NCBI RefSeq assembly: GCF_017569185.1
Contig: NZ_CP071869.1
Coordinates: forward strand, 496,001-560,000
Source of the DNA: Polaribacter cellanae
GTDB taxonomy: Bacteria > Bacteroidota > Bacteroidia > Flavobacteriales > Flavobacteriaceae
Direction: 5' to 3'
DNA length: 64,000 bases
Shown: in pieces, positions 6,486 to 58,199 of the stretch
Position numbering within the stretch: the first letter of the stretch is position 1
Layout: each line of letters opens with the position of its first letter
Translations under genes and position numbers: made by a program
Notes under the pieces: generated by a model
The model's input: the letters and a program-made list of their open reading frames with translations, nothing else
Database searches by the model: none
What the model was told of the DNA's origin: nothing

Positions 6486-6487
6486 TA

Positions 6488-7768: not shown

Positions 7769-7790
7769 GCAATGGTTAAATTCGCTCTTA

Positions 7791-11800: not shown

Positions 11801-13135
11801 TTGAAGTATTTTTACAAAACTTTATTTCTTCACAATAAATTCTTCTATTATTTAGGAGGTATTGCTGTACTCTTTGTGTTCGGTTTTTTTATACCTGTAT
11901 TTTTTGAAATTTCTAAAGTATTACTGTTTGTGCTTAGTTTTTTAGTTTTTGTGGATTTATTTCTACTTTACAAAATCAAAAAAGGAGTTACAATCACACG
12001 TTTTTTACCTGAAAGATTGTCTAATGGCGATGAAAATAAAATAACACTAAAAACTAATAATTATTATTCTTTTAAAACTCACATTTCTATTATTGAAGAG
12101 TTGCCTTTTCAGTTTCAAAAAAGAGATTTTATTTTTCGATTGACCTTAACTCCAAAAGAAGAAAAAAAACTTCATTATAATTTAAAACCAACAGAAAGAG
12201 GAGTTTACAATTTCGGTCATATCAATGCGTATGTGAATTCACCTTTACAATTAGTAACTAAAAAATACATTCTTGGAGAAGAAAAAGTATTAAAATGCTA
12301 CCCTTCTTTCTTAAAACTAAGAGATTTCGATATTACTTCTTTTACGAATCAATCTATTTCTTACGGAACAAAAAAAATAAGAAGAATTGGGAATTCTTTA
12401 GAATTCGAGCAAATTAAAGAATATGTTTCTGGAGACGATATTAGAACCCTAAATTGGAAAGCAACTGCGAAAAGTAACCAATTAATGGTCAACCAATATG
12501 TAGAAGAAAAATCGCAACCTGTATATTCGATTATCGATAAAGGACGTGCAATGCAAATGCACTTTAACGAATTAAGTTTGTTAGATTATGCCATTAATGC
12601 AACCTTGGCAATTAGTAATGTAATCTTAAAAAAGCAAGACAAAGCTGGTATGCTTACGTTTTCTAAAAAATTAGAAGATTGGGTTGTCGCAGAAAAACGA
12701 AGCTCACAAATGTCTTTGATTTCAGAAAGGCTGCACAATATTAAAACAGACTTTTCGGAATCCGATTTTAGCACATTATATTCCGTAATAAAAAGAAAAA
12801 TAACGCATAGAAGTTTACTAATTATTTATACAAACTTCGAAACGATGGATGGTTTAAATCGACAGCTTACCTATTTACGTGCTTTGGCAAAAAATCATTT
12901 AGTTTTGGTAGTTTTCTTTAAAAACACTGATTTACAGACTTTAATAAATACAAAGGCAAACAATATACAAGATGTGTATGACAGTATTATTGCAGAAAAG
13001 TTTATGTACGAAAAAGTAAGAATTGTAAACGAACTAAAAAAATACGGGATTCAATCTGTATTAACATCTCCAAAAAACTTAACAGGAGATACTATTAACA
13101 AGTATTTAGAATTGAAGGCTAGAAGGCTTTTCTAA
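11801..13135 (+). CDS. DUF58 domain protein (MoxR partner)
   Basis: The 444-residue protein starts at a TTG; no in-frame ATG lies near the first hydrophobic segment. Two membrane spans (FFYYLGGIAVLFVFGFFI and VLLFVLSFLVFVDLFLL) precede a beta-rich region. The DUF58 signature then appears around FEQIKEYVSGDDIRTLNWKATAK, followed by a vWA-like region with DKGRAMQM. DUF58 proteins are encoded next to MoxR ATPases and are thought to be their clients or adaptors. Distance to MoxR is 82 bp, occupied by short repeats. Confidence 0.88.
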   Translation: MKYFYKTLFLHNKFFYYLGGIAVLFVFGFFIPVFFEISKVLLFVLSFLVFVDLFLLYKIKKGVTITRFLPERLSNGDENKITLKTNNYYSFKTHISIIEELPFQFQKRDFIFRLTLTPKEEKKLHYNLKPTERGVYNFGHINAYVNSPLQLVTKKYILGEEKVLKCYPSFLKLRDFDITSFTNQSISYGTKKIRRIGNSLEFEQIKEYVSGDDIRTLNWKATAKSNQLMVNQYVEEKSQPVYSIIDKGRAMQMHFNELSLLDYAINATLAISNVILKKQDKAGMLTFSKKLEDWVVAEKRSSQMSLISERLHNIKTDFSESDFSTLYSVIKRKITHRSLLIIYTNFETMDGLNRQLTYLRALAKNHLVLVVFFKNTDLQTLINTKANNIQDVYDSIIAEKFMYEKVRIVNELKKYGIQSVLTSPKNLTGDTINKYLELKARRLF

Positions 13136-13174
13136 TTTTATAAAAACAACTAATATTAACTAAATAATTAAAAA

Positions 13175-13516
13175 ATGAGTAATTTAAAATTGAAATTAAA
13201 AAAAGTAGATGCAACAAAGTACGGAATTATCGTAGGAAGTGTTATGGCATTGTTAACATTTATAATCCTATCTTTAGGTTTTTTATTTACAAGTTTAATA
13301 GGATTTGGAAGTGGTGTAGATAGTACTGGATTAGGGATGATGTTAGGAGGAGGAATATTTATGGTAATTCTTGGTCCAGTTTTATATTTTGTAGTAGGAT
13401 TTCTTTTCGGTTGGATTGGATGTATGATACTTAATTTTATATTAAAAAAATCTGGAGGTTTAGATATTGAATTTGAAAAATCTGGTTTTGAGATTTCTGA
13501 AATAGGTAAAGAATAA
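13175..13516 (+). CDS. Small membrane protein, DUF3566-like
   Basis: The 113-residue protein has two long hydrophobic segments: GIIVGSVMALLTFIILSLGF (about residues 18-37) and LGGGIFMVILGPVLYFVVGF plus FGWIGCMIL (about 57-90). A glycine-rich loop separates them, and the C-terminal tail is acidic. This resembles the DUF3566 type of small transmembrane protein. It follows DUF58 by 39 bp and may be the last gene of the MoxR operon. Function is unknown. Confidence 0.6.
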   Translation: MSNLKLKLKKVDATKYGIIVGSVMALLTFIILSLGFLFTSLIGFGSGVDSTGLGMMLGGGIFMVILGPVLYFVVGFLFGWIGCMILNFILKKSGGLDIEFEKSGFEISEIGKE

Positions 13517-13525
13517 ACTAATCTT

Positions 13526-13657
13526 AGGCTGTCTTAAAAGTAAATTTAACCGTTATTTTTAGCGAGGTCGAAAAATCTAAAATATTTAAATTCAATAAAT
13601 AAGATTTCTCCATTGCAGTCGAAATTACAAATTCTAATTTTTTTTTTAAAACAGCCT
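13526..13657. repeat. 132-bp inverted-repeat intergenic element
   Basis: AGGCTGTCTTAAAA at the left end is mirrored by the complement of AGGCTGTTTTAAAA at the right end (one mismatch in 14). Internally, GGTCGAAAAATCT (13565-13577) can pair with the AGATTTCTCC region (13601-13610), and a GTCGAAAT motif follows. The element fills the space between two convergent genes. From memory, similar GGTCGAAA...AGATTTCTCC palindromes are dispersed in Flavobacteriaceae genomes. It could act as a bidirectional terminator or as a miniature mobile element. Confidence 0.6.
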
Positions 13658-13662
13658 TTTTT

Positions 13663-14205
13663 TTACTTCTTTTCTAAAATACGTTCTTGCCAATTTCCAC
13701 TATAAGAAATCGCAGTTCTATTACTACTATTTATTCTTAAATCGCTTCTTTTATTAACAAATAACGTAAGTATTGCATTGTAGTTATCATTTTTGTCATT
13801 AAAAGAATATTTTAAAATATAGGCACGTTTCTTAACATCAAAAACCTTATTATTCTTGTCTGGAACTCCTTCAAATTTAATACCACTTTCAGAATTGTAT
13901 CCTCTAGCCATTTGCTGTTGTCCATAATAAGGTAAATCTATATGCAAACTATCTCTTTTAATTCGGAAAAAATTAGAATTTCCGACAAGATTAATATTAC
14001 TTGCAGTGCTTCCTGGAGGTAATAAATTTTCTATACCCCTTACATTATTATTTAATCCTAAAGGTCTTGCCCAATTAAAAGTTATTTCAATTTCTTTATT
14101 GTTTAGGGTTTCTTTTAATTCGTTTATTTCGTGTGGAGTTGCTGTGTTTTTAGTACTTCCACAATTCATAAAAATTACTAAAACACTTAATATTGCTATT
14201 CTCAT
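13663..14205 (-). CDS. DUF4251 family lipoprotein
   Basis: This 180-residue protein has a short signal ending FMNC (Cys15), so it is probably lipid-anchored. The body matches DUF4251, a Bacteroidetes family: ARPLGLNN, FFRIKRDSLHIDLPYYG, SGIKFEGVPD, DVKKRAYILKYSF and a final DLRINSSNRTAISYSG. Function is unknown. It converges on the small membrane protein gene, with the palindromic element between them. Confidence 0.75.
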   Translation of the reverse strand: MRIAILSVLVIFMNCGSTKNTATPHEINELKETLNNKEIEITFNWARPLGLNNNVRGIENLLPPGSTASNINLVGNSNFFRIKRDSLHIDLPYYGQQQMARGYNSESGIKFEGVPDKNNKVFDVKKRAYILKYSFNDKNDNYNAILTLFVNKRSDLRINSSNRTAISYSGNWQERILEKK

Positions 14206-14359
14206 AATATTCTAATTTATAAACTTTTAATACTCTAATTTACAAAATCTGCTTTTAAAAACTCATAAAAAAAAATATAAATTTAAAATATTTTTTTTCA
14301 ATTTTTTAATATTTTGTTTCAACAAATTAAACGTTATTTTTGACAACCAAAAACAACCA

Positions 14360-15064
14360 ATGAGTGTAACAATCATTTTTGAAGATGAACACATCTTATG
14401 CGTGAGTAAACCCAATAATATGTTGGTACATCATGCACACCATTCTAGAAATATTGCTGAAGAAACTTCACTTTTACAATTAATTAAAGACGAAAAAGGA
14501 CTGAAAGTATATCCCATTCATAGATTAGATAGAAAAACATCTGGAATTATTTTGTTAGCAAAAGAAAAAGAGTTTGTTTCTAAGTTTCAAAAACTGTTTA
14601 CCAATAACAAAATTGAAAAAACATATTATGGAATTGTACGTGGTTTTTCTCCTGATGAAAAAACAATCGATTCTCCAGTAAAAGGAGGAGACGCCAACAC
14701 ACATAAAGAAGCTTTAACTTATTTACAAACGTTAGAAAAAATAACTTTAAATATTCCTGTAAAACCTTACAATTCTTCAAGATATAGTTTGGTGGAATTA
14801 AAACCAAAAACAGGAAGAATGCACCAGTTAAGAGTCCATGCGAATAAAATTAGTTATCCATTAATTGGCGACCCCAAATATGGCGATAAAAACCATAATG
14901 TAATGTTTGAGGAAAATTTTAATTGTAAAAAAATGTTTTTGCATGCTGGAAAATTGGAGTTTACACATCCGTTTTCTTCCGAAAAATTAATTTTAAAGGC
15001 GAATTTTCCAAAAGACTGGATTTCTTTATTTAAAGAGTTTTCTTGGAAAAATCCACTACAGTAA
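14360..15064 (+). CDS. RluA-family RNA pseudouridine synthase (TruC-like)
   Basis: The 234-residue cytoplasmic protein has IIFEDEHILCVSKPNNMLVH, the catalytic motif HRLDRKTSG with Asp57, and PKTGRMHQLRVHANKISYPLIGDPKYG (motif III). There is no S4 domain, and the length is close to TruC, which makes pseudouridine 65 in tRNA. Assignment to TruC over another RluA subgroup is likely but not certain. It stands alone, with a start directly after a short AT-rich leader. Confidence 0.85.
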   Translation: MSVTIIFEDEHILCVSKPNNMLVHHAHHSRNIAEETSLLQLIKDEKGLKVYPIHRLDRKTSGIILLAKEKEFVSKFQKLFTNNKIEKTYYGIVRGFSPDEKTIDSPVKGGDANTHKEALTYLQTLEKITLNIPVKPYNSSRYSLVELKPKTGRMHQLRVHANKISYPLIGDPKYGDKNHNVMFEENFNCKKMFLHAGKLEFTHPFSSEKLILKANFPKDWISLFKEFSWKNPLQ

Positions 15065-15107
15065 ACAAGTAAAGAGATTTTTTAAGAGAAAAAATTTGTA
15101 AAAAATG

Positions 15108-15293
15108 CTATTGCTCAATAGACAAAAAACGAAAATCGATTAACTTTCCTTGTTTAAAAGTTGGCGAAACTTCTATAGGGTTACAACAAACCTCGCAATC
15201 TTCTATATAGGTTTGACTGTGAATACTCGCATCTAAAATCATAGAAATTTCTTCCCAACAGTAAGGACATTGAAAAAAATGTTGCTGCTCCAC
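15108..15293 (-). CDS. CPXCG-motif small zinc-ribbon protein
   Basis: This 61-residue protein has FQCPYCWEEI (Cys9 and Cys12) and EDCEVCCNPIEVSP (Cys33, Cys36, Cys37). It belongs to the conserved CPXCG-motif-containing cysteine-rich family found in Proteobacteria and Bacteroidetes. The four outer cysteines probably bind one zinc ion. It is a single gene convergent with the pseudouridine synthase. Its function is not known. Confidence 0.85.
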   Translation of the reverse strand: MEQQHFFQCPYCWEEISMILDASIHSQTYIEDCEVCCNPIEVSPTFKQGKLIDFRFLSIEQ

Positions 15294-15421
15294 TACTCTA
15301 TTTCTTTTAAAACTAATATTATTTTTTGCCAGAACACAATTTACCTATTGTCTATTTTTTTAAAATTTTAGAAGTCCTAATAAAAAAATCTTCTCTAAAT
15401 TTTCTACTCCATAAGTAGAAC

Positions 15422-17410
15422 TTAATAAACTAATAATTCTTCAATAGATTTTTCCAATCGGCTCTTACCTAAATATTCTTTTTCTAAATCTGGCTGAAAA
15501 GGAATGGGAGTTTCTAAACTTGCAACTCTTTTTACAGGTGCATCTAAAAACTCAAAACAATTTTCGTTAATTAGCGCAGAAATATCGCTTGAAATTCCCC
15601 CAAAAAGAGAATCTTCTTGAACAATGATTGCTTTTCCTGTTTTCTTTACAGATTTGTAAATAGTATCTACATCTAAAGGTTGCAATGTACGTAAATCGAT
15701 AATATCCGCAGAAATATCAGGTTTTTTTTCTAAAGCTTCTAGAACCCAATGAATTCCAGCTCCATAACTAATAATTGTAATTTTATTTCCTTCTTGTAAA
15801 AGCGCTGCTTTACCAATTTCTGTTGTAAAATAATTTTCGGAAACTTCTTGATAAACAGACCTATACAGGGCTTTGTGCTCGAAAAACAAAACAGGGTTTG
15901 GGTCGTTAATCGCTTCAATTAATAATCCTTTTGCATCTTGAGGAAATGCAGGATATACCACTTTTAAGCCAGGTGTCTTTGTAAACCAAGCTTCGTTGGT
16001 TTGGCTATGAAATGGTCCAGCTCCAACTCCTGCTCCACAAGGCATTCTTACAACAACATCTGCATTTTCGTTCCATCTATAATTAGATTTTGCCAATAAA
16101 TTTACAATCGGGTTAAAACCTGAGGAAACAAAATCTGCAAACTGCATTTCTACAACTGCTTTCATTCCATTTACAGATAAGCCATAAGCAGCAGAAACAA
16201 TGGCAGATTCGCAAATTGGTGTATTTCTAACACGTTTTTTTCCAAATTTTTCTACAAAACCATCTGTAATTTTAAAAACACCCCCATATTCAGCAATGTC
16301 TTGCCCCATAATTACCAAATCGTCGTATTTTTCCATAGATTGATACAAACCTTCAGAAACAGCATCAATAAAACGAACATTCTTTTTTTCTAAAGATGGA
16401 GAAATTGCTTTGTAATCGTATTTTTTATAAACATCACTCAGCTCTATTTTTTGGTTTGAAACAATAGCTTTTTCTGCATATGCTGTTTTTAAACCCTCAT
16501 TTATTTCTTGAATAATTTCTTCTTTATAGGAAATTTCTAATTTTTCGGTTAAAATATTTTCTTGTTTTAAAAATGCTTGATAATTTTCTAATGGATCTTT
16601 TGCCGCCCATAAATCTAACAAATCTTGTGGAACGTATTTTGTTCCACTCGCTTCTTCATGACCTCGCATTCGAAATGTTTTAAATTCCAACAAAATAGGT
16701 CGTGGTTTCTTTCGAACACTTTTTGCAATTTCGCTTACTTTCGAAAATACTTCTAGAATATTATTACCATCGATTATATAACTTTCTATTCCATAACCAA
16801 TTCCTTTATCTGCAATATGTTCGCAATTAAATTGCTCGGAAGTTGGTGTAGACAAGCCATAACCATTATTTTCCACACAAAATAAAACGGGTAAATTCCA
16901 AACTGAGGCTACATTTAAAGCTTCGTGAAAATCGCCTTCACTTGTACCACCTTCACCTGAAAAAACGGCGCAAAGTTTGCTGTTGTTTTTTAGTATGTTG
17001 GCGAGTGCAATTCCATCTGCAATACCCAATTGAGGTCCTAAATGCGAAATCATGCCTACAATATTGTATTCTTGTGTTCCAAAATGAAAACTTCGATCTC
17101 TACCTTTGGTAAAACCGCTCATTTTTCCTTGCCATTGAGAAAATAAACGATGTAGAGGAATTTCTCTTGTGGTAAAAACGCCTAAATTTCTGTGCATTGG
17201 TAAAATATATTCTTCTTTATACAAAGCAGAAGTTACTCCTACAGAAATTGCTTCTTGCCCTATTCCAGAAAACCATTTCGAAATTTTACCTTGACGTAAA
17301 AGAATTAACATTTTTTCCTCAATTAAACGAGGTTTTAGCATATTTTTATACAATTCTAATAACTTCTTTTTATTGATAGAATTTGTAGTATAGATAATTT
17401 TATCAGTCAT
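15422..17410 (-). CDS. 2-oxoacid (branched-chain type) dehydrogenase E1, alpha-beta fusion
   Basis: The 662-residue protein joins an alpha-type E1 (residues 1 to about 330) with a beta-type E1 (about 350-662). The alpha half has FSGIGQEAISVG, the thiamine-diphosphate motif GEGGTSEGDFHEALN...ENNGYG, and RGHEEASG. The beta half has MGQDIAEYGGVFKITDGF, TPICESAIVSAAYG and a C-terminal transketolase-like domain. It catalyses ThDP-dependent decarboxylation of a 2-oxoacid and acylation of lipoyl-E2, most likely branched-chain 2-oxoacids. E2 and E3 are not in this window. It lies downstream of an Lrp regulator but is separated from it by a terminator-like hairpin. Confidence 0.9.
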   Translation of the reverse strand: MTDKIIYTTNSINKKKLLELYKNMLKPRLIEEKMLILLRQGKISKWFSGIGQEAISVGVTSALYKEEYILPMHRNLGVFTTREIPLHRLFSQWQGKMSGFTKGRDRSFHFGTQEYNIVGMISHLGPQLGIADGIALANILKNNSKLCAVFSGEGGTSEGDFHEALNVASVWNLPVLFCVENNGYGLSTPTSEQFNCEHIADKGIGYGIESYIIDGNNILEVFSKVSEIAKSVRKKPRPILLEFKTFRMRGHEEASGTKYVPQDLLDLWAAKDPLENYQAFLKQENILTEKLEISYKEEIIQEINEGLKTAYAEKAIVSNQKIELSDVYKKYDYKAISPSLEKKNVRFIDAVSEGLYQSMEKYDDLVIMGQDIAEYGGVFKITDGFVEKFGKKRVRNTPICESAIVSAAYGLSVNGMKAVVEMQFADFVSSGFNPIVNLLAKSNYRWNENADVVVRMPCGAGVGAGPFHSQTNEAWFTKTPGLKVVYPAFPQDAKGLLIEAINDPNPVLFFEHKALYRSVYQEVSENYFTTEIGKAALLQEGNKITIISYGAGIHWVLEALEKKPDISADIIDLRTLQPLDVDTIYKSVKKTGKAIIVQEDSLFGGISSDISALINENCFEFLDAPVKRVASLETPIPFQPDLEKEYLGKSRLEKSIEELLVY

Positions 17411-20207: not shown

Positions 20208-21564
20208 TTAGGCTACTTGTTGTGCTGTTTTAGCTATTTTTCTTCGGCCAATTTCAAGAGCATTCCCTGTGTGTATTCCAAAGAATATCCATAGAATTTC
20301 ATTCTTTTTAGTTTTGGCTTTTATTTTTCGTAAGTGATAATATTCTTTATCCTTTCCAAAAGAACCTTCTAATCTTGTAGCTCTTTCTTTTGCGATAATA
20401 GCTCTAAGTTGCTTTTTTTCTTTATGATTTTTCGGCTTTTTTCCCTTGGGGATAAAGTCTGTTTCTATGTTCTTAGAACTACAGTGTTTTCTATTTTTAT
20501 TGGTGGCATAAATTTTATCTGCTCCAGCTATTTTTACTTTTTTTCGAGTTAATCCTTGTGCTTTTTGGACTGTTTGAATAAAACGATTTCCTTCATGAAA
20601 TGCATTAAAGTTAATATGTTCGATAAAGCTAATTCCATCAATTTGAACTTTGTTAACTTTTGCTCCAAATTCAACAGGTTTTACTTCCTTTCCTCGAACA
20701 ATAGGACGAATATAATCCTTTTGAATGCTTACAATTCTATCTTTGATTTTTTCTCCTGTATCAAAATGATCTTTTTGTTGTTTGTAAATCCTTTGAATTG
20801 TATTTATTCGCTTATAATACAAAGCTATAAACTCAATATTGTGATTTTCTGACAACTCTTTTTCAAAGTTGATAAATTTACTTAACAGATTGAGTAAACC
20901 TCGGGTTAATGAAATACGTTTCGACTTGGTTTTTCTTCGCATTTTACTAAATCCTTGATAACGTTTTTTCCACTTGATATATTTACTTCTAATCATTTTA
21001 ACCCCTAATATAGAGCAGGTTTTACGTAATTGATTGTACAACCAATGAACCGACTCCCAAAGTAATTTTTGGATGCTAGGGTAACGAACTTCACTTTCAT
21101 AACAAGTAGCATCCATTACAATTTGATTGGGGTTTTCAATTTCGTTTTTCCAAGAGTTGAATAGAATTTTTTCTATGGAATTAATATCGAGTTTCTCTGC
21201 TAATTCACAACGTATTTGGCTCACTATTTTATAGTTTGTTAAGCGTTCAAAACCTAGTTCTATATCACAGAAAAATTGATAGTCTAAATTCGAGTTTAGT
21301 TGCTCAATCAATTTTCTATCTGAACAATTAGCATAATGTTTTAAAAACATTAAACCTAGTCTTCCTTTAGGACTAAAAAGATAGTTTCTCCCTTTTGATT
21401 GTTCAGAAATACCAAAAGAGCTAACTAAATCATTCCAAGGAATTGCAGAGTAGATTTTACCTAAATCTCCCTCTAAAAATCGCGCATAATGAGCATCATA
21501 ATTCTCGCTGAGGGGAAAAAATTGAAATGCGGTGTTGCATTTCAGAAATTCTTCGTACTTTCAT
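20208..21564 (-). pseudogene. IS5/IS1182-type transposase with a frameshift at the start
   Basis: A long frame (380 residues from an internal ATG at 21350, open upstream to about 21558) encodes a DDE transposase. It has a DUF772-like N-terminal block (DRKLIEQLNSNLDYQFFCDIELG), the first catalytic Asp region MDATCYESEVRYPS, and a C-terminal RATRLEGSFGKDKEYYHL block. The sequence upstream, KCNTAFQFFPLSENYDAHYA, belongs to the same protein. The only plausible ATG (21562-21564) is out of frame because of one extra A (ATGAAAG instead of ATGAAG). With that base removed, the protein would be 451 residues. Family subgrouping between IS5 and IS1182 is uncertain. Confidence 0.75.
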
Positions 21565-41190: not shown

Positions 41191-42231
41191 CTACAAAGTC
41201 GCTAGCTTACTATTCAATAAATAGTCAGTGTACATGCTTTTATAATACACTTTCTTTTCAATAGACTCTATTACAGGAGTTGCAAAATCTTCCTCATACA
41301 TTTCGCCAATTACATTTAACCCTCCAGGACTAAACACATTAATTTCCATTAATTTATCGCCCACAATATCAATTCCTACTAAAAACATACCATCTTGCAC
41401 CAATTTTGGTCTTACAATGTCTGCTAGTTTCATAATTTGATCCGTTATTTTTACGGGTTGTGGCTTTCCTCCTGCATGGATATTGCTTCGAATATCGCCA
41501 GAAGCGTTTACACGTTGCATCATTGCATATTTTCCATTTACTTGTAAAGGTTCTCCATTCATTAAAAATAAACGGGTGTCTCCTTTTGTAGCTTCCGTTA
41601 AATACTCTTGTGCGATTACAAAGCCATCTCTACAAATAGCATCGATTGTTTGTGTTAGATTGTGCTCGTTTTTTTTATCCATCATAAAAACATTGGTTCC
41701 TCCAGAACCTTGTAAAGGCTTTAAAATCATTTTTTGTTTTTGCTCTTTAAAAAACTCTTTAATTTCTAAATGATCTCTGGTTACAATTGTTTTAGGACGT
41801 AAAATTTCTGGGAAATGCTGAAAATACATTTTATTGACTGCACCTGCCAAACTTTTTGGGTGATTTAAAACAATAACACCATTTCTCATGGCAATTTCTC
41901 CAAAAATAAAAGCGGCGTTTTGTGCCCAATCTCTTTCGTTAATCTCGTCTGCTGGATTGTTTCTTAAAAACAGTACCTCTAAATCTTCTGAAGTTATTGT
42001 AGAAAATTCTTGATTCTGTACTGCTTTAAAATAAGTTTCTTGTGAATTAAATTTTTTGTCTTTTACAGATTTACATCTAACAGACAAATGTCCTCTGGAA
42101 GCATAAGCCAATTCTCCTACTCCAATAAAATAGACTTCGTGCCCACGTTTATATGCTGCATAACCCAATGCAGGAGTTGTATAATTCGGTTTTTCTGTTT
42201 TATGGTCGTTTATTATAAATGCTATTTTCAT
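41191..42231 (-). CDS. Glutathione-synthetase-like ATP-grasp ligase 1
   Basis: The 346-residue protein has a GshB-like pre-ATP-grasp domain (MKIAFIINDH, EVYFIGVGELAY, LFLRNNPADEIN). The ATP-grasp core follows: MILKPLQGSGGTNVFMM, AQEYLTEATKGDTRLFLMNG, SNIHAGGKPQPV, VGIDIVGDKLMEINVFSPGGL with the metal-binding ME.N. It should form an amide bond between a carboxylate (via acyl phosphate) and an amine. No GshA is nearby, and the organism has bshA, so glutathione is an unlikely product. It is the last gene of the operon with the QEGLA and N-formylglutamate amidohydrolase genes, 53 bp after QEGLA. Confidence 0.88.
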   Translation of the reverse strand: MKIAFIINDHKTEKPNYTTPALGYAAYKRGHEVYFIGVGELAYASRGHLSVRCKSVKDKKFNSQETYFKAVQNQEFSTITSEDLEVLFLRNNPADEINERDWAQNAAFIFGEIAMRNGVIVLNHPKSLAGAVNKMYFQHFPEILRPKTIVTRDHLEIKEFFKEQKQKMILKPLQGSGGTNVFMMDKKNEHNLTQTIDAICRDGFVIAQEYLTEATKGDTRLFLMNGEPLQVNGKYAMMQRVNASGDIRSNIHAGGKPQPVKITDQIMKLADIVRPKLVQDGMFLVGIDIVGDKLMEINVFSPGGLNVIGEMYEEDFATPVIESIEKKVYYKSMYTDYLLNSKLATL

Positions 42232-42284
42232 CTCTTTTTTTATTTACTATACTATTTAAAAAAGATTCGTCTATAGATTTAATT

Positions 42285-44123
42285 TTAATCTGCTAACTCT
42301 ATAATATCTAAACCTTTATATAGTTTTTTTAATCTTTTTTGTACATTTTTTCTTTCTAAAAAACGAGGCAATTCTGGTTTTACTAAAACGTTTCTATATA
42401 AAAGTTCTTCAATTAATGCTGTGTGTGTAATATTGAATTTCCCTGTATATAAATTCTCTAAACTTCCTCCTTCTTTTAAATACTTTAGCAAATCTATTAA
42501 TCCTGCTAAGTACACTGCATCTTTTGTTAAACCACCACCTCTATAAACTCTCATGGTTATATAATAGGCGATTCTTTCTGAAAATGCATATTTCTTACAA
42601 AGTTTCTTAAAAGTTTCAATAAATGTTAACCCATTTACCATAGATTGTACCCCAATTACTCTTCCTGCCAATAATCTTAAACGGTTTACAGTTAAACCTC
42701 CAACCAAATATTCTGCAATTACTGCAAGACCTTCTTGTAGTTGGTCATATCCTTCAAAACCTTCGTACATTTGCTTTAAAGGCTGGCGTTTTCCATTGCA
42801 ATACGTTAAAATGTGTGTGGCAACTTCATGCTGAATTAAAGCATCACACCTATTGGCATCTAAAGAAATTTCATCATTAATTAACAATTTTGTTTTGCTA
42901 ACCATAATTCCTGCAACATCATTTCTTATTTCTACAGTTAAATCTAAATTCGGAAACTTACTATTATAATAATCTATTTCCTTTTGCGCGTGTTCTGCAA
43001 ATTCTGTACAATTAAAACGACTTTCACTTTTCCTGGTTTCTCTCTTTGGAAAAGCTTTTAGAATCTTTTTAGCTTCTTTTAATACGTTTTTGTTGATAAC
43101 GCCATACAAACTTTCGCCTACAAATCTAAAATTATCTGTTCCACGTTCTTCTAACATGGTTAGTTGCTTTTCTATTTCTAAACGCTTTCCTCTTAAAATA
43201 AAAGCAATGGTTGGGTCTTCAATTTCATCTATAGGAATGTTGTATAGTTTTCGCTTTTCCAACTCTGGATCTATCGAAATTAATCGATATTTAAACGATG
43301 GAAGTTTCTTGAATTTATTCTCTTTAAATTTCTTCCATTCCTCGTTACTATTTACAGGAGTTGTTCTTAAAAGGAAAGACATTCTCTCGCTAATTGCTGC
43401 TAATTGCGTGTCCGATTCTCGGGTTACTCTGTCTATATGCGTTTTTCCAAGCATTAAATAATTCTCGAAACTATCTGTGGTTTGTACTCTAATAAATTCG
43501 TAAACTGCTCTTTTTATGGTTTCTGAAAAAACGCCATAAAATACTCTAAAAAACAAGGAATAAAGCTCGTTTGTAAGTGTATTTTTATATAAAACTGGTA
43601 CTTGAATTCCAATAATTAGCATTCCTGTTTTTTTGGAAGTATCTAAATCTACAAGTGGTTCTAAGTGTTTTGGATGTTTAGGGTTATGATCGCTTACATA
43701 CGCAGAAACATTTGGGTATGTAAGATTTAATTTATTAAAACCTTCTTCCAATGCCTTTGCGGTTTCTGAAGCAATTTTAACAGGACAATTAATATGAAAT
43801 TTCGTGCTCGTATTTTCGCTATCTGGCCAAACTTCTAGAGCTAAAAAAGTTTCAAATTTTTCTGATACAATTAATCTTATGGCTTCTAAAAGCTTTGTGA
43901 TATCTATACTTTCATCAACGATTAAGTAAGAAGCTTGTGTTTTTAATAATCTTGAGAAATAAACATCTGGTTCTTTAAATCTATAAACACAAATAAAAGG
44001 TAAAAATTTATCGATATGTAAAATTCCGTTATTTGGTAATTCGTAATTTAAAGGTGAATCGCTATGTATTTTCTCACAAATTTCTTGTATTATATTTGAA
44101 TCTATATGCTTGTTTTTACTCAT
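42285..44123 (-). CDS. QEGLA-motif (DUF1704) metallopeptidase-like protein
   Basis: The 612-residue protein matches the family named flavohemoglobin expression-modulating QEGLA motif protein (DUF1704/KIAA0895-like). It has a metal-binding HEVATH (HExxxH, His432-His437) and the name-giving YDQLQEGLAVIAEYLVGG about 40 residues later, as in gluzincin-like peptidases where a distal Glu is the third ligand. The C-terminus carries the VYRGGGLTKDAVYLAGL block. It is cytoplasmic. The named link to flavohemoglobin is from family annotation, not visible here. Its start overlaps the N-formylglutamate amidohydrolase gene by 8 bp. Confidence 0.88.
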   Translation of the reverse strand: MSKNKHIDSNIIQEICEKIHSDSPLNYELPNNGILHIDKFLPFICVYRFKEPDVYFSRLLKTQASYLIVDESIDITKLLEAIRLIVSEKFETFLALEVWPDSENTSTKFHINCPVKIASETAKALEEGFNKLNLTYPNVSAYVSDHNPKHPKHLEPLVDLDTSKKTGMLIIGIQVPVLYKNTLTNELYSLFFRVFYGVFSETIKRAVYEFIRVQTTDSFENYLMLGKTHIDRVTRESDTQLAAISERMSFLLRTTPVNSNEEWKKFKENKFKKLPSFKYRLISIDPELEKRKLYNIPIDEIEDPTIAFILRGKRLEIEKQLTMLEERGTDNFRFVGESLYGVINKNVLKEAKKILKAFPKRETRKSESRFNCTEFAEHAQKEIDYYNSKFPNLDLTVEIRNDVAGIMVSKTKLLINDEISLDANRCDALIQHEVATHILTYCNGKRQPLKQMYEGFEGYDQLQEGLAVIAEYLVGGLTVNRLRLLAGRVIGVQSMVNGLTFIETFKKLCKKYAFSERIAYYITMRVYRGGGLTKDAVYLAGLIDLLKYLKEGGSLENLYTGKFNITHTALIEELLYRNVLVKPELPRFLERKNVQKRLKKLYKGLDIIELAD

Positions 44124-44961
44124 GTAAATTGTATTCTTTATAAAATTCTTCTGCGTGTTTTTTTAACTCCGTTTTTAAATATTGCTCTACAGACTTTACC
44201 ACTTCTGGATACATTATTTGTGCTAATTCATCACAATAAATTTTAGCAATTTCGGTTGCTAAAACCAATGTATTCTTAAAATTCTGAGTAATATATTTTA
44301 AGAAATATCCATTTCCTTGAAAAGTATCGTTAATTTTTGAAGTCGCATTTATGCCATTTGGGAAAGGTGTTTTTTCTAACGTTTCTCTCCAAGATTCTAT
44401 TACTTTTCCAAAACGATTGTTATCTACATTGCTTGTTCCTAAATTCCAAGCTGGTACTTCTCTATCCCATCGTTTCCAGTTGTAAGAATGCATATCATAC
44501 ACTACACATATACCAAATTTTTCTTCTAATTTTTCGATTAATGCGTGTACAACTTTATAGAAGTTGGTGTGTTTCTGTAAACTTTTTTCTATTTGATTTT
44601 CTGTTAACGGATTTTTCCACAACTGTTTTCCCCAAGCATCTGTATAAATGGCATTATCTGGTGCTCTGTTTAGATCATACTCGAAACGAGAATCCATTCC
44701 AGCAATAACTATAGGATGCGATTTTACCATTTCTTTCGTTTCTGGGTCTTCTTCAAACCAGCGTTCGTAAGCTGTATGCAAACAATTATCCCATAATTCT
44801 TTTCTAAATTGATGCCCATCATGCACAGCTCCACAAGCATAATGCACATATTTATCAATTTTTATAGTAAAAGAATAGTCACTTGAAACTGCTTCAAAAG
44901 TTTCTTCGTTTTTAATCTTCGTTACAATTTCTTCAACAGTTAATTTTAACATATTAACCAA
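44116..44961 (-). CDS. N-formylglutamate amidohydrolase-like protein
   Basis: This 281-residue protein matches the N-formylglutamate amidohydrolase (HutG2/FGase) family: YACGAVHDGHQFRKEL, AGMDSRFEYDLNRAPDNAIY, VVYDMHSYNWKRWDREVPAWNLGTSN and NGINATSKINDTFQGNGYFLKYI. The DRAP-like and DMHS motifs supply metal ligands. The canonical enzyme releases formate from N-formylglutamate in histidine breakdown, but no hut genes are present. Its place between a QEGLA protein and a TerB-like protein suggests hydrolysis of another acyl- or peptidyl-glutamate bond. It overlaps both neighbours by 8 bp. Confidence 0.85.
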   Translation of the reverse strand: MVNMLKLTVEEIVTKIKNEETFEAVSSDYSFTIKIDKYVHYACGAVHDGHQFRKELWDNCLHTAYERWFEEDPETKEMVKSHPIVIAGMDSRFEYDLNRAPDNAIYTDAWGKQLWKNPLTENQIEKSLQKHTNFYKVVHALIEKLEEKFGICVVYDMHSYNWKRWDREVPAWNLGTSNVDNNRFGKVIESWRETLEKTPFPNGINATSKINDTFQGNGYFLKYITQNFKNTLVLATEIAKIYCDELAQIMYPEVVKSVEQYLKTELKKHAEEFYKEYNLHE

Positions 44962-45280
44962 TAATTTTCTTTAAAATTCCAAATACTTTTTTCTCGTAAA
45001 AATCGACAGAACCATCAGCAAAAAATACATTTTTAATGTTTCTTAATAATTCATCTTTTTCTGATTGTGTAAAATCGTTTTCGGAAAAATATTGCTGAAT
45101 TTTATCTAAATTTTCCTCCTCTGAATCCACTACAACTTCTGTATGAATTTTATGAAACGTCTTTTCATCGACTTTAGAAAGTATAAATTCTTGTTCGTTT
45201 TTATCTTCTATATGATTGCAATGTGCTGCGTATAAAAGCACATAAGCTTCAAATTCTTTTCTGGTCCAATCTAAATTCAT
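44954..45280 (-). CDS. TerB-like small protein
   Basis: I use the ATG at 45278-45280 (MNLDWTRKEFEAYVLLYAA), giving 108 residues. The longer frame upstream runs antisense-free into the sulfurtransferase gene in another frame and is not credible. The helical protein ends KNVFFADGSVDFYEKKVFGILKKI. This resembles the TerB-type repeat in which an ADG-x-V-x-x-x-E turn joins two helices. TerB domains bind membranes or metals in stress-response operons. It starts 2 bp after the sulfurtransferase stop and overlaps the amidohydrolase by 8 bp, so it is an integral part of the operon. The family call is tentative. Confidence 0.65.
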   Translation of the reverse strand: MNLDWTRKEFEAYVLLYAAHCNHIEDKNEQEFILSKVDEKTFHKIHTEVVVDSEEENLDKIQQYFSENDFTQSEKDELLRNIKNVFFADGSVDFYEKKVFGILKKIIG

Positions 45281-45282
45281 AA

Positions 45283-46122
45283 TTATAATGCTATTGGTAA
45301 ATTGTTTGTACTGCCCCACTCTGTCCAAGAACCATCGTAAACTGCAACATTTTTTACTCCTGCAATTGCTGCGCCTAACGCTAAAATTGATGCTGTAATG
45401 CCAGAACCACAAGTAAAAATTATTTGTTCTTTATTTTTATAGTCCTTAAAAATGTTTTTTAATTCTTCTGCGGATTTCATTTTACCACTTTGCTGCATTT
45501 CAATAAAAGGTAAACTCACAGAATTAGGAATGTGTCCGCTTTTTAAATCGTTTCTTGGTTCTGGTTCTGTTCCGTAAAAACGACCTTTTGAACGAGCATC
45601 TGCTATTAAAATGGCTTTATTTTCTATGGAATTTAGCACATCGTTTGTAAACTTTAATTTTTCTGGTTTGTAATAGACTTTAAAATTTCCTTTTTTAGGT
45701 TGATGTGTTTTAGGTGTTTCAATAGGATAATTTTTTGATTTCCATTCTGGAAAGCCTCCATCTAGAATAGCAATATTTTTAAAACCCATTAATTGAAACA
45801 TCCACCAAACTCTTGGTGAAGAATAAGTACCTAAATCGTCATAACAAACTAATACAGAATCTTTATTTATGCCTAATTCTTGGGCTTTTTCTTGAAATTC
45901 TTTGGGAGCTAAAACTGTATTTGGAAAAGGTACTTTCTTATCTGAAAACACATTTTTTAAATCAAAAAAAAGGGCTCCTTTAATCTGTTTTTTATCTGTA
46001 GAATTTTGTGATTTGTCAGTCACTTTCGGAATTGTACAATCTAAAATAATTAAATTTTCGTTCTCTAAATTGTTGTACAACCAATCTACAGAAACCAAAG
46101 GAGAGCTTATATGTAAGGACAT
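45283..46122 (-). CDS. Two-domain sulfurtransferase (rhodanese/MST type)
   Basis: The 279-residue protein contains two rhodanese domains. The N-terminal one (VSVDWLYNNLENENLIILDCT, VCYDDLGTYSSPRVWWMFQLMG) lacks an active Cys. The C-terminal one has the catalytic Cys238 in FTCGSGITAS and ends VAVYDGSWTEWGS. The CGSGxTA loop fits 3-mercaptopyruvate sulfurtransferase better than thiosulfate sulfurtransferase (which has CRKGVT). It moves a sulfane sulfur from the donor to a thiol acceptor. As first gene of the packed operon it may link sulfur chemistry to the ligase product, which is inference. Confidence 0.9.
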   Translation of the reverse strand: MSLHISSPLVSVDWLYNNLENENLIILDCTIPKVTDKSQNSTDKKQIKGALFFDLKNVFSDKKVPFPNTVLAPKEFQEKAQELGINKDSVLVCYDDLGTYSSPRVWWMFQLMGFKNIAILDGGFPEWKSKNYPIETPKTHQPKKGNFKVYYKPEKLKFTNDVLNSIENKAILIADARSKGRFYGTEPEPRNDLKSGHIPNSVSLPFIEMQQSGKMKSAEELKNIFKDYKNKEQIIFTCGSGITASILALGAAIAGVKNVAVYDGSWTEWGSTNNLPIAL

Positions 46123-46173
46123 AGCAAATGTGTTTTAAAATTTTAGTATTTTTTGAGAAACTCTCAATAAAAA

Positions 46174-46203
46174 CTTCTAGCTTCCAACTTCCAACTTCCA
46201 ACT
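46174..46203. repeat. Four 7-bp CTTCCAA-type tandem units
   Basis: CTTCTAG then three exact CTTCCAA units (46181-46201), in the gap between the two ligase-cluster transcripts. This is the same type of short, text-like repeat as at 11731 and 47286. Confidence 0.7.
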
Positions 46204-46208
46204 AAAAA

Positions 46209-47243
46209 CTAAGCTTCATCAACCAACTTCTTTAAGCTTGATTTTCGTCTAAAAGCAGCATCTTTTTCCAACACTTTACTTTCCATAAAATTAACTACCT
46301 TTTCTTGAACTCTTGTTTTATAAACTTTGTTCATATACGTAATTCCTCCAGGAGACATTACATTTACTTCTACTAATTTGCCTCCAATTACGTCAATACC
46401 CACAAAATAGAGTCCGTCTTTTACTAATTTTGGTCCAATTCTATTACACAATTTTTTTTCTTCTGCAGTTAGTTTATGTTTGGCAATACTTCCACCAGCA
46501 GAAACATTAGATCTATGATCTTTTTCCCCTGGAATTCTACGCATTGCACCAATTGGAACTCCATTTAAAATTAATACACGAACGTCTCCTTGATTTGCTC
46601 CTTCTATATATTCTTGCAGAATTACATAATCTGAACCACCATCGCTTTTGCTTATGTAAAAATCTAACAACGAATTAATATTTCCCATTGCCGATTTTTC
46701 AATTAAAATAACTCCAGAGCCACCAAAACCGTTCAAAGGTTTTAAAATCATTTTATCGGAAGGAGATTCCTCTATCATTTTAATTAAATAATCTTTGTTT
46801 TTAGAAACGTGTGTTACAGGAATAATCTCGTTGTTTGGATCTTCGAAAACAGCTGTATATAGTTTGTTATTAGCTTCACGCATTCCTTGTACAGAATTTA
46901 TAATGAAAACATCGTCTTTAACAGAGTCTAAGAAATTTAGCATTAAAGGATCTAAAGGTGGTTCTGCACGCATAAAAATAACATCGAAACCTGCCAAAGG
47001 AAGCATTTCTTCTCTTGTAGTTGTTTTGTTATAAAACGACTTTATATTGGATGGAACTTTTTCTGTTCTGTTTAAAATGGTACAAAAAGCGTTGGTAACA
47101 CTGTTTCTAATGGTTAAATTAGAAGGTGTACAAATGGCAACTCCATGCCCTCTTTTTACACATTCGTGAATTAAGGTTAATGATGTATCGTTTTCTGGAG
47201 ATTTTATGTTCTCCCATGGATACATTAAAAAACATACGTTCAT
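46209..47243 (-). CDS. Glutathione-synthetase-like ATP-grasp ligase 2
   Basis: The 344-residue protein is closer to classical GshB: MNVCFLMYPWENIKSPENDTS, FMRAEPPLDPLMLNFLDSV, MILKPLNGFGGSGVILIEK, LQEYIEGANQGDVRVLILNG, RSNVSAGGSIAKHKLT and VGIDVIGGKLVEVNVMSPGGI. All ATP-grasp nucleotide and metal positions look intact. It is paralogous to ligase 1, five genes downstream. The likely substrate pair is a gamma- or alpha-linked peptide and an amino acid; glycine is only one option. It lies 86 bp upstream of the sulfurtransferase gene. Confidence 0.9.
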   Translation of the reverse strand: MNVCFLMYPWENIKSPENDTSLTLIHECVKRGHGVAICTPSNLTIRNSVTNAFCTILNRTEKVPSNIKSFYNKTTTREEMLPLAGFDVIFMRAEPPLDPLMLNFLDSVKDDVFIINSVQGMREANNKLYTAVFEDPNNEIIPVTHVSKNKDYLIKMIEESPSDKMILKPLNGFGGSGVILIEKSAMGNINSLLDFYISKSDGGSDYVILQEYIEGANQGDVRVLILNGVPIGAMRRIPGEKDHRSNVSAGGSIAKHKLTAEEKKLCNRIGPKLVKDGLYFVGIDVIGGKLVEVNVMSPGGITYMNKVYKTRVQEKVVNFMESKVLEKDAAFRRKSSLKKLVDEA

Positions 47244-47285
47244 ATTTATTTTTTTAAAATTTTTAATTTCTTATTAAATAGAAAG

Positions 47286-47361
47286 CTTAGATCTTAAATC
47301 TGCGACTAAAAACTGCAACTGCCTACTAAATACTAAGACTGCTACTGCCAACTGAAGACTA
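47286..47361. repeat. Degenerate CAGT/CTGC short repeats
   Basis: A 76-bp tract reads as units such as CTGCGACTAAAAA, CTGCAA, CTGCCTACTAAATACTAAGA, CTGCTA, CTGCCAACTGAAGA. On the opposite strand this is AGTCTTCAGTTGGCAGTAGC, very like the tract at 11731-11770. It runs up to and includes the stop codon of the symporter gene. Confidence 0.6.
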
Positions 47362-48684
47362 CTTCACTTTATCATAATTATCGTCCCAATTTTTAGGTTT
47401 TGGTTCGTGTAATTTACCCAAAGATTTCGCAACCAACATAGATACAGTTGCATCTCCAGTAACATTTACAGTAGTTCTACACATATCTAAAGGTCTGTCT
47501 ACTGCAAAAATAAGTGCCAAACCAATGGGCAATAATTCCGCAGGAAAACCAATAGATTCTAAAACAATTACTAACATAACCATACCTGCACTTGGTACAG
47601 CTGCAGAACCTATAGAGGCTAATAAAGCTGTTAAAACAATTACTAATTGATTCGAAAAAGTTAAACCTTCTGGCCAAATAACTTGCATAATAAAAACGGC
47701 TGCAATACCTTGATATAAACTTGTTCCATCCATATTAATCGTTGCTCCAACTGGTAAAACAAACCCTGAAACTTCTTTATCTACGCCCAAATGTTCTTCT
47801 ACTCTCTCCATAGTTACTGGTAAAGTTGCTGCACTCGAACTTGTAGAAAATGCTAACAATTGTGCTGGACTTATTTGCTTTAAAAACCACATTGGCGATT
47901 TTTTTGTGTACACACTTACTAAAATTAAGTAGAAACCAATCATTAAAATTAAACCTCCAACTACACACAAAGCATAAACTAATAGTTTTAAGAGAATTTC
48001 GGTATCATCAAAAGCGATAATTACGTTTGCCAACAATGCAAAAACGGCATAAGGAGCAAAAAGCATAATTAAATCGACCATTTTCATAACCATTTCATTT
48101 AAAGAATCAAAGAAATCCATTAAAGGTTTGGCTTTTTTCTCTGGAATTAATAGTAATGAAATCCCTACAAACATGGCAAAGAATATAATTTGTAACATAC
48201 TTGCATCTGCAAAAGACTGAAAAATATTACTTGGAAAAATATCTACCAAAGCTTGCAAAGGACCTGCATCTTTTTGGGCAGATGCTTTTACCAACTTATC
48301 TGTAACTCCAGAATCTGATTCGTATTTTAATTTGATTTTTTCTATGGTATCTGGCGACATTCCAACACCAGGTTCAATTAAATTTACAATTCCTAAACCA
48401 ATAATAATGGCTATTAAAGTGGTTCCTACATAAATAGAAATTGTTCTTAGCCCCATTTCCTTAATTTTAGAAATATCTTTTAAATCGGATATCCCTTTAA
48501 TTAAAGAGGCTAAAATTAGTGGAACAGCTATTAGTTTTAATAAATTAATAAATATGGTTCCAAAAGGTTTTATCCAATCTGTAACAAATCCTTTTCCTCC
48601 ATCTAAAGTATTCATAATAAATCCAAAAATGATACCAAGTACCATTCCTATTAAAATTTTCCAGTGTAATGCTAAATTTTTCAT
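47359..48684 (-). CDS. Dicarboxylate/amino acid:cation symporter (DAACS, GltP-like)
   Basis: The 441-residue membrane protein has the SLC1/DAACS signature: FNLLKLIAVPLILASLIKGI-like second helix (seen as FINLLKLIAVPLILASLIKG), AFSTSSSAATLPVT (serine-rich hairpin HP1), GATINMDGTSLYQG and RTTVNVTGDATVSMLVA. It moves glutamate, aspartate or C4-dicarboxylates with H+ or Na+. It lies immediately upstream of ligase 2 on the same strand, 115 bp away, and may feed an acidic amino acid to the ligase pathway. Confidence 0.92.
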   Translation of the reverse strand: MKNLALHWKILIGMVLGIIFGFIMNTLDGGKGFVTDWIKPFGTIFINLLKLIAVPLILASLIKGISDLKDISKIKEMGLRTISIYVGTTLIAIIIGLGIVNLIEPGVGMSPDTIEKIKLKYESDSGVTDKLVKASAQKDAGPLQALVDIFPSNIFQSFADASMLQIIFFAMFVGISLLLIPEKKAKPLMDFFDSLNEMVMKMVDLIMLFAPYAVFALLANVIIAFDDTEILLKLLVYALCVVGGLILMIGFYLILVSVYTKKSPMWFLKQISPAQLLAFSTSSSAATLPVTMERVEEHLGVDKEVSGFVLPVGATINMDGTSLYQGIAAVFIMQVIWPEGLTFSNQLVIVLTALLASIGSAAVPSAGMVMLVIVLESIGFPAELLPIGLALIFAVDRPLDMCRTTVNVTGDATVSMLVAKSLGKLHEPKPKNWDDNYDKVK

Positions 48685-48807: not shown

Positions 48808-49446
48808 ATGGCAGGTATTTTAGACTTATTAAATAGTGATTTAGGAAAACAGATCGTTTCTGGTGTAGCAGGTTCTACTGGAAATGATTCCAACAAAACA
48901 AATAGTGTTTTAACAATGGCTTTGCCAGTTTTAATGAAAGCTATGGAAAGAAATGCAGCTACTCCAGAAGGTGCACAAGGCTTACAAAAAGCATTAGAAA
49001 CAAAACACGATGGAAGTATTTTAGACAATCTTGGAAGTTTATTTGGTGGTGGAGTTGATGAAAGCGTGAAAAAAGATGGAGAAAATATTTTAGGGCATAT
49101 TTTAGGTCAAAAACAACAAGGTGTAGAAAAAGTTATTAGTCAGAAATCTGGTTTAGATGCAGGTTCTGTTGCAAATATTTTAAAAGTTGCTGCTCCAATT
49201 TTAATGGGTGTTTTAGGAAAACAAAAGAAAGAACAAAATGTTAGTGATTCTTCTGGTTTAGGTAGTTTATTAGGTGGAATGTTAGGTGGAAATGACACGA
49301 AAAATGAACAAAGTTTCTTGGAAAAAATCTTAGACGCAGATGGAGATGGAAGCGTTGTAGATGATGTTGCTGGAATGTTTTTAGGAGGAAGTAATAAAAA
49401 ATCTGGTGGACTTGGTGGTTTGTTAGGTGGTCTTTTTGGGAAATAA
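48808..49446 (+). CDS. DUF937 domain protein
   Basis: This 212-residue protein begins MAGILDLLNSDLGKQIVSGVAG and contains a DUF937 helix pattern (VAAPILMGVLGKQKKEQ). Its C-terminal half has Gly/Leu-rich repeats (LGSLLGGMLGG, LGGLLGGLFGK) and a short DADGDGS segment that could bind calcium. The family resembles YidB-like helical bundle proteins. It has no signal peptide. Function is unknown. It is monocistronic with a terminator 20 bp after its stop. Confidence 0.85.
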   Translation: MAGILDLLNSDLGKQIVSGVAGSTGNDSNKTNSVLTMALPVLMKAMERNAATPEGAQGLQKALETKHDGSILDNLGSLFGGGVDESVKKDGENILGHILGQKQQGVEKVISQKSGLDAGSVANILKVAAPILMGVLGKQKKEQNVSDSSGLGSLLGGMLGGNDTKNEQSFLEKILDADGDGSVVDDVAGMFLGGSNKKSGGLGGLLGGLFGK

Positions 49447-57068: not shown

Positions 57069-58199
57069 TTATTTTACCTTATAACAAGATTTGTAAATTT
57101 CTTCGTACACAGGTAAAATATTTTCTAATGAGAATTGTTTGGTATGCTCTTTCGCATTTTGCTTAAATTTCTCTAAAATAGCATCGTCTTTTAAAATTGA
57201 AATGGCATTTTTAGCCATATCTTCTACATCTCCTAAATTACTTAAATAACCCGTTTTTCCTTGAATATTAACTTCTGGCAAACCACCTGTATTTGTAGAA
57301 ATAACAGATGTTCCTGCAGCCATTGCTTCTAAAGCTGCCAAACCAAAACTCTCTGTTTGTGATGGTAATAGAAAAACATCTGTATAACATAAAATCTTAG
57401 CTACTTCTGTACTGTTCCCTAAAAAGAAAACATCGTCTGCAATTTTTAATTCTTTGGCTAATTTTTTGGCTTTTATTTTTTCTGGACCTTCGCCAATCAT
57501 TAATAATTTAGCCGGAATTTCTTTTTTTACTTCAGCAAAAATTTTAATGACATCTTCTACCCTTTTTACAGGTCTAAAATTACTAATATGTGTTAAAATT
57601 CGTTCATTCGGTTTTGCTAATGCACTTCTTTTACATTCTTCTTTGTGAGCATTGTCGTATTTTTCTGTATCAATAAAATTATAAACAACTTGAATATTCT
57701 TAGTTATATTAAACAATTTATTGGTAGTTTCTTTTAGGTTATTAGAAACTGCAGTAACCACATCCGAGTTATTAATGCTAAATTCTACAGCTGTTTTATA
57801 GGTTGGATGACTTCCAACCAATGTAATGTCTGTTCCATGAAGTGTGGTTACCACTCTAACATCTAACCCTTTTTCTCTTAACATTTGCTTTGCCATAAAA
57901 GCAGCATACGCATGTGGAATTGCATAATGTACGTGTAAAACTTCTAAGTCGTATTTCCTTACAATTTCTACCATTTTACTCGATAAAGCTAATTCGTAAG
58001 GTTGATATTCGAATAATGGATATTCTTCGATTACAACTTGATGAAAATGCAATTGATGAGAAAGAAAATCTAAGCGAACTGGTTGGTTATACGTAATAAA
58101 ATGAACTTCATGCCCTTTATTTGCTAGTGCCATTCCTAATTCTGTAGCTACTACTCCACTTCCACCAAATGTTGGATAACAAACAATCCCTATTTTCAT
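57069..58199 (-). CDS. bshA: Bacillithiol biosynthesis glycosyltransferase BshA
   Basis: The 376-residue GT4 enzyme matches BshA: MKIGIVCYPTFGGSGVVATELGMALANKGHEVHF in the N-terminal domain (seen in blocks PTFGGSGVVATELG, HEVHFITYNQPVRL), EVLHVHYAIPHAYAA, and the C-terminal ISNFRPVKRVEDV and TESFGLAALEAMAAGTSVIST. It joins UDP-GlcNAc to L-malate, the first step to bacillithiol (the low-molecular thiol of Firmicutes and many Bacteroidetes). bshB and bshC are not in the window. It lies about 150 bp downstream of the transketolase half-gene, with a terminator between. Confidence 0.95.
   Translation of the reverse strand: MKIGIVCYPTFGGSGVVATELGMALANKGHEVHFITYNQPVRLDFLSHQLHFHQVVIEEYPLFEYQPYELALSSKMVEIVRKYDLEVLHVHYAIPHAYAAFMAKQMLREKGLDVRVVTTLHGTDITLVGSHPTYKTAVEFSINNSDVVTAVSNNLKETTNKLFNITKNIQVVYNFIDTEKYDNAHKEECKRSALAKPNERILTHISNFRPVKRVEDVIKIFAEVKKEIPAKLLMIGEGPEKIKAKKLAKELKIADDVFFLGNSTEVAKILCYTDVFLLPSQTESFGLAALEAMAAGTSVISTNTGGLPEVNIQGKTGYLSNLGDVEDMAKNAISILKDDAILEKFKQNAKEHTKQFSLENILPVYEEIYKSCYKVK

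Follow-up and report, generated by a model that had tools for sequence, protein, structure and literature searches.

A conserved operon of GshB-like ATP-grasp ligases and MATCAP- and FGase-type hydrolases in a Polaribacter genome

Introduction

The pairing of ATP-grasp amidoligases with peptidases is already known as a general kind of system, and so are the components of the locus described here. In 2009, Iyer et al. reportedly predicted operons of ATP-grasp amidoligases and peptidases in which the peptidases are of unrelated folds. The three-gene core described below may already be among the operons listed in that work.

In Pseudomonas, the bacterial ATP-grasp ligase RimK and the peptidase RimB write and erase glutamates on ribosomal protein S6 (PMC11957791). 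The rlo operon of Pseudomonas aeruginosa (RloA, RloB, RloC) contains an ATP-grasp protein and proteases that cleave polyglutamate, the latter needed in hypo-osmotic medium (PMC12239564). Animal MATCAP/TMCP enzymes cut off C-terminal tyrosine and shorten polyglutamate chains; the survey in this 2023 TMCP paper covered eukaryotes only (PMC10499314). For the bacterial QEGLA family (QEGLA, DUF1704, PF08014, TIGR02421), a partial literature search returned no relevant paper besides one table row from Photobacterium damselae (PMC10308900). There, a gshB-like gene (RS17020) and a QEGLA gene (RS17025) with neighbouring locus tags are among the genes most induced in low salt, rising 38.4-fold and 27.5-fold, respectively, in 1% versus 3% NaCl (PMC10308900). 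Here we analyze a locus that carries both kinds of gene. It lies in a window of 64,000 nucleotides (C1:496001-560000) from the complete 4.14-Mb chromosome of the flavobacterium Polaribacter cellanae.

Results

Seven genes, all on the minus strand, occupy positions 41191-48684 of the window. Each was found where a preliminary description had placed it, and the family assignments stood except for one TerB-like label. In the direction of transcription, the first gene encodes a glutamate/aspartate symporter of the GltP-type SDF family (47359..48684; PF00375, E 9e-125). It is followed by ligase A, a GshB-like ATP-grasp amidoligase of 344 residues (46209..47243; PF02951 and PF02955), a double rhodanese resembling 3-mercaptopyruvate sulfurtransferase (MST; 45283..46122; PF00581 in two stretches) and an all-helical protein of 108 residues (44954..45280). 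The last three genes encode an FGase-like zinc hydrolase of 278 residues (44116..44952; PF05013, E 1.4e-14), a long QEGLA/MATCAP protein of 612 residues that resembles HExxxH metallocarboxypeptidases (42285..44123) and ligase B, a second GshB-like ATP-grasp amidoligase, of 346 residues (41191..42231; PF02951 and PF02955). Three of the spacings proposed earlier are correct: 2 bp between the MST and 108-residue genes, an 8-bp overlap of the FGase and QEGLA genes (ATGAGTAA) and 53 bp between the QEGLA and ligase B genes. The fourth, an 8-bp overlap of the 108-residue gene with the FGase gene, was not upheld; it depends on initiation at a TTG (44961). Nine bases downstream of this TTG, the ATG at 44952 leaves a 1-bp gap to the 108-residue gene. 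As homologues share this ATG, we assign 278 residues to the FGase. A DUF937 protein gene (48808-49446) is divergent from the symporter gene and neighbours the operon in many Polaribacter. Elsewhere in the window, an IS5/ISNCY-like transposase (20208-21350) scores under the equivalog cut-offs.

The 612-residue protein is a clear member of the MATCAP/QEGLA family, with 323.6 bits against PF08014 (cut-off 27, E 2e-96), and carries HEVATH and QEGLA motifs. It does not reach the QEGLA equivalog TIGR02421 (323.3 bits vs 338.65). HExxxH is present in 61 of 61 MATCAPs, and all have the distal QEG or a close variant, in which EG is invariant. A profile of the long MATCAPs matches the human MATCAP structures 7z5g, 7z5h and 7z6s (E 2.5e-11). 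The profile was needed for this match: as single sequences, neither the MATCAP nor the FGase matched any PDB sequence. The MATCAP domain spans approximately residues 264–601. Residues from about 1 to 214 probably form an additional FGase/M14-like domain with no conserved zinc ligands. Profile comparison of this N-terminal domain with the FGase gave an hhalign probability of 8% (E 0.004). By Foldseek, a weak model (pLDDT 60) matched the FGase structure 2q7s (probability 1.00, E 0.035) and M14 carboxypeptidases (E 0.0016-0.003). The domain, as modeled, probably mirrors the fusion of FGase to MATCAP that occurs in type I loci (below). The separate FGase of the window belongs to the wider FGase family only, scoring 19.8 bits against the HutG equivalog TIGR02017 (cut-off 278.75). 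The motifs HxG, SRFxxDxNR and DxHxYN are invariant in its group.

The best-scoring models for both ligases are those of glutathione synthetase, and both ligases pass NCBIfam PRK12458. Ligase A lies above the cut-off of the GshB equivalog PRK05246 (280.9 vs 272) and ligase B below it; both are below the cut-off of TIGR01380. The RimK-family cut-off of 143.4 is missed by the two proteins (80.6 and 93.1). A third, RimK-like ATP-grasp protein is encoded elsewhere in the genome (L092, C1:4132284-4132730), and a RimK-type system may thus coexist with the ligase-MATCAP system. Both ligases keep the ATP-grasp positions of E. coli GshB (R86, K125, K160, D208, R210, R225, R233, N235, D273, E281 and N283), and the catalytic residues are kept throughout the two clades to which they belong. 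The region around T288 is changed. SPTC in E. coli GshB is SPGG, SPGA or SPGT in both clades, with SPGG in ligase B, suggesting that the acceptor is likely to differ from that of GshB.

The genome content points in the same direction. Neither of the gshA families PF04107 and PF04262 was found in the complete genome, in which the positive controls were detected. The gene bshA, for the first step of bacillithiol synthesis, is located at 57069-58199 of the window (NCBIfam TIGR03999, 566.6 bits), which supports a predicted non-glutathione thiol in the host organism. The preliminary description had considered glutathione an unlikely product for want of a gshA gene nearby and in view of bshA; the genome-wide absence of these two gshA families and the presence of bshA bear this out.

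To define which of the genes belong together, we compared about 60 loci from the genus, the class, the phylum, named genomes and plasmid records. The conserved unit is smaller than the seven genes. It is a core of three, which encode a GshB-like ATP-grasp ligase, a hydrolase of the FGase type and a metallocarboxypeptidase of the QEGLA family, now named MATCAP by Pfam. Of 395 evenly sampled Bacteroidota genomes, 19 have MATCAP. The GshB-like ligase adjoins it in 18 of the 19, and an FGase is adjacent or fused to it in 15. In the three loci of this sample that have a ligase and no FGase, the ligase instead has a hydrolase of the AstE/AspA family as its neighbour. In a fourth FGase-less locus, outside the sample, an AstE/AspA hydrolase is found a few genes downstream; all four loci examined in this way are type II. 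The probability of such MATCAP-ligase adjacency arising by chance is below 1e-30 by a rough binomial estimate, and the gene arrangement is not a chance one. Across the loci the core genes are coupled, commonly with overlaps of 4 to 8 bp, and no partner of MATCAP is more constant than the ligase. The three core genes are also found, in identical order, on plasmids of Shinella, Mesorhizobium, Pararhizobium, Aminobacter and Sinorhizobium. Conserved co-occurrence, which had been proposed as a check on the cluster, holds for the ligase/hydrolase operon, with 18 of 19 pairings; a lack of co-occurrence in other genomes, which would have refuted the earlier interpretation, was not observed. The near fusion of the genes, also remarked on earlier, likewise reflects a conserved, translationally coupled operon. 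No candidate protein substrate is co-located with the core.

Some loci depart from this pattern. Stand-alone, divergent QEGLA proteins with neither ligase nor FGase are encoded in Pseudoalteromonas, Aeromonas and one Bacteroidota genome (L067, L069, L070), and they form a separate clade in the MATCAP tree. A Vibrio plasmid (L093) has a type I fusion with no ligase beside it. A DUF413 (MaoP) gene is located just upstream of the type I genes both on this plasmid (L093:5530-5889) and in Photobacterium (L066:7640-7981). In one type II operon, a gene for a retropepsin-like aspartyl protease lies upstream, and CBS-domain and AstE/AspA genes lie downstream (L041:7429-8718, 12101-15899). The ligase gene appears to be split by a frameshift in L059:11828-12870 and L089:8777-9807, possibly through sequencing error or decay. 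An apparent MATCAP-ligase fusion of 914 residues in L081 was rejected: the MATCAP is in a different frame (6089-8050), and within the long frame ligase is encoded only towards the C-terminus, the N-terminal portion being a shadow frame produced by high GC content.

The core exists in two co-evolving forms. In type I, the order is ligase A, FGase and a short MATCAP of 382–400 residues. Many type I loci, among them those of Photobacterium and of several Bacteroidota, encode a single fused FGase-MATCAP protein of 660–667 residues, which links the two hydrolases to each other. In type II, found in Bacteroidota (Gelidibacter, Winogradskyella and others) and on Rhizobiales plasmids, the order is FGase, a long MATCAP of 607–660 residues and ligase B. 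The MATCAP tree and the ligase tree both split, with strong support, into these same two groups; ligase A of the window falls in the type I clade and ligase B in the type II clade (support 100/99 in the ligase tree). Pairing follows the same division. Wherever the contig extends far enough, ligase B follows the long MATCAP. Where an FGase accompanies a short or fused MATCAP, ligase A lies upstream, with two exceptions, one at a contig edge and one on a Vibrio plasmid. The order of locus tags in P. damselae fits the type I pair in two other Photobacterium records (L066, L094). Judged from annotation and adjacent locus tags, RS17020 and RS17025 are very probably such a pair.

The window carries a composite of the two forms: ligase A, with the upstream portion of a type I operon, is joined to the MATCAP and second ligase of type II. 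Of the 147 genomes searched in the genus, 54 have ligase A, and the Polaribacter ligase A loci that were inspected are mostly plain type I operons. The composite also occurs in two other Polaribacter, Lacinutrix, Winogradskyella and two further flavobacterial genera (G531, G544), and it recurs with or without the MST and TerB-like genes. The full seven-gene order, which the preliminary description had not seen described, is found again in two further Polaribacter and Winogradskyella, and in Lacinutrix with one extra gene. In the majority of flavobacterial loci the GltP gene precedes ligase A, with a median gap of 56 bp in the 26 loci in which the two adjoin.

The MST and TerB-like genes, located between ligase A and the FGase, are accessories. 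They occur in some Flavobacteriaceae only; most loci elsewhere, and every one in Rhizobiales and Photobacterium, lack them. The proposal that all seven genes form one pathway is not sustained by this distribution. A sulfur step and a Ter association had also been proposed; with both genes restricted to a few Flavobacteriaceae loci, these ideas lose their basis. The MST-like protein itself scores 218.7 against the MST equivalog cut-off of 250. The 108-residue protein matches no Pfam or NCBIfam family, TerB included. Its AlphaFold model (pLDDT 90.6) has 2h5n, a structure classed as TerB-like, as its best PDB match by Foldseek (probability 1.00, TM 0.58–0.60, E 0.07). The TerB-like label thus fails at the family level, and the predicted fold bears a weak resemblance to TerB.

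Discussion

Based on these observations, we propose, at about even confidence, that the core is a cytosolic system that makes and breaks amide bonds, working like RimK/RimB or the tubulin ligase/MATCAP pair. The GshB-like ligase would spend ATP to couple a soluble substrate, through its carboxylate, to an amino acid. Terminal residues would be taken off by the MATCAP-type metallocarboxypeptidase, and the FGase-type zinc hydrolase, or its AstE/AspA replacement, would cleave a second amide bond, that of an acyl-acidic amino acid. The most likely product would be an acidic one, either a short peptide or a C-terminal tail, and its amount would vary with osmotic conditions; glutamate is a plausible constituent. 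In the composite locus, the two ligases would probably add two different residues, or serve two substrates with shared hydrolases. Gene content, active sites, pairing, fusion and the absence of the gshA families PF04107 and PF04262 were computed here; the low-salt co-induction and the activity of animal MATCAPs come from the literature. We infer the substrate, the direction, the osmotic role in Polaribacter and the type I identity of the P. damselae pair.

A system that adds and removes amino acids and is tied to osmotic state is favoured because of the co-induction in P. damselae, the animal MATCAP activity and the precedents of RimK/RimB and rlo. Against this reading are the lack of a co-located candidate protein substrate, the MATCAPs that stand alone (L067, L069, L070), the ligase-less fusion of Vibrio L093 and the fact that no reported activity was found for any bacterial member. 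Ligation and hydrolysis could instead be steps of a one-way synthesis. The ligase or ligases would then build a dedicated small metabolite by coupling an acidic amino acid or dipeptide that bears an N-acyl group such as formyl, acetyl or succinyl, and FGase and MATCAP would act in its maturation, by deprotection and trimming, rather than as erasers. The FGase and AstE/AspA families, which replace each other in the operon, do act on N-acyl glutamate or aspartate; the translational coupling of hydrolases and ligases suggests a fixed stoichiometry, and a glutamate/aspartate symporter is linked to the operon in Flavobacteriaceae. However, across the compared loci the core lacks any conserved companion gene for an acyltransferase, an exporter or resistance, and the so far characterized carboxypeptidases of the MATCAP kind trim protein tails (PMC10499314). 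We consider one-way synthesis a tentative and somewhat unlikely alternative.

The symporter linkage in Flavobacteriaceae could also be read as a sign of salvage, in which the hydrolases, two of the three core enzymes, dismantle an acidic peptide, either taken up or damaged, and the ligase reuses one of the pieces. We give this reading little weight: the most constant partner of MATCAP is the ligase, and a conserved peptide importer is missing from the compared loci. Even less probable is a low-molecular thiol pathway, to glutathione or a different thiol, in which the sulfurtransferase would carry out the sulfur step. It would explain why both ligases score best against glutathione synthetase models and why ligase A exceeds the PRK05246 cut-off. 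Against it are the absence of the gshA families PF04107 and PF04262, the presence of bshA, the altered SPTC loop in both ligase clades and the lack of the sulfurtransferase in most loci outside some Flavobacteriaceae. That the genes are merely unrelated neighbours, as the patchy distribution of MST, the TerB-like gene and GltP might suggest, has next to no probability and is already refuted for the three-gene core by its conservation across phyla in fixed order, with fusion and matching trees; the MST and TerB-like genes may still be such neighbours.

The make-and-break proposal can be extended, although we regard the extension as distinctly doubtful. A bacterial cycle controlled by salinity, run by a GshB-like ligase and a MATCAP carboxypeptidase, may add residues to, and remove them from, the C-terminus or side chains of a cytosolic target; the processing of tubulin by eukaryotic MATCAPs may be descended from this cycle, and the two ligases of the window, with shared erasers, may write a two-residue tag.

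These results suggest a shared, testable function for the family annotated as ‘flavohemoglobin expression-modulating QEGLA motif’ and for a group of genes annotated as glutathione synthase, and they place the MATCAP tubulin carboxypeptidases in a bacterial context. What was published as a low-salinity ‘GshB’ response in a fish pathogen may be something other than glutathione synthesis. Should the cycle be confirmed, the core would join RimK/RimB as another bacterial pairing of ligase and peptidase, one whose peptidases are unrelated to RimB. In a partial literature search, we found no paper that combines the low-salt co-induction and the link to animal MATCAPs with the pairing rule, the replacement of FGase by AstE/AspA and the composite with two ligases. 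A Brucella sigma-factor paper that names an FGase was set aside, as it concerns a predicted promoter site only and shows no link to the ligase-MATCAP operon.

Among the known systems, E. coli GshB shares its fold and catalytic residues with the two ligases. It differs in that the acceptor-side loop of the ligases is changed, they are tied to hydrolases and the genome has no gshA of PF04107 or PF04262. The rlo operon also combines an ATP-grasp protein with peptidases, and its proteases matter in hypo-osmotic conditions (PMC12239564). However, RloA is secreted and rlo includes a membrane protein with an inactive transglutaminase, whereas the window enzymes look cytosolic, with no signal peptide evident by inspection. 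The detyrosination and deglutamylation of tubulin resemble the proposed cycle in that a carboxypeptidase of the MATCAP (TMCP) family opposes an ATP-grasp ligase, tubulin tyrosine ligase; the bacterial core has another ATP-grasp subfamily and an extra FGase. In RimK/RimB, as in the core, an ATP-grasp ligase that adds amino acids is encoded together with an opposing peptidase, and a RimB-RimK fusion exists (PMC11957791). RimB is a retropepsin, a type of protease not found among the seven window genes, and RimK/RimB acts on S6, whereas the core combines a GshB-like ligase with the MATCAP and FGase metallo-enzymes.
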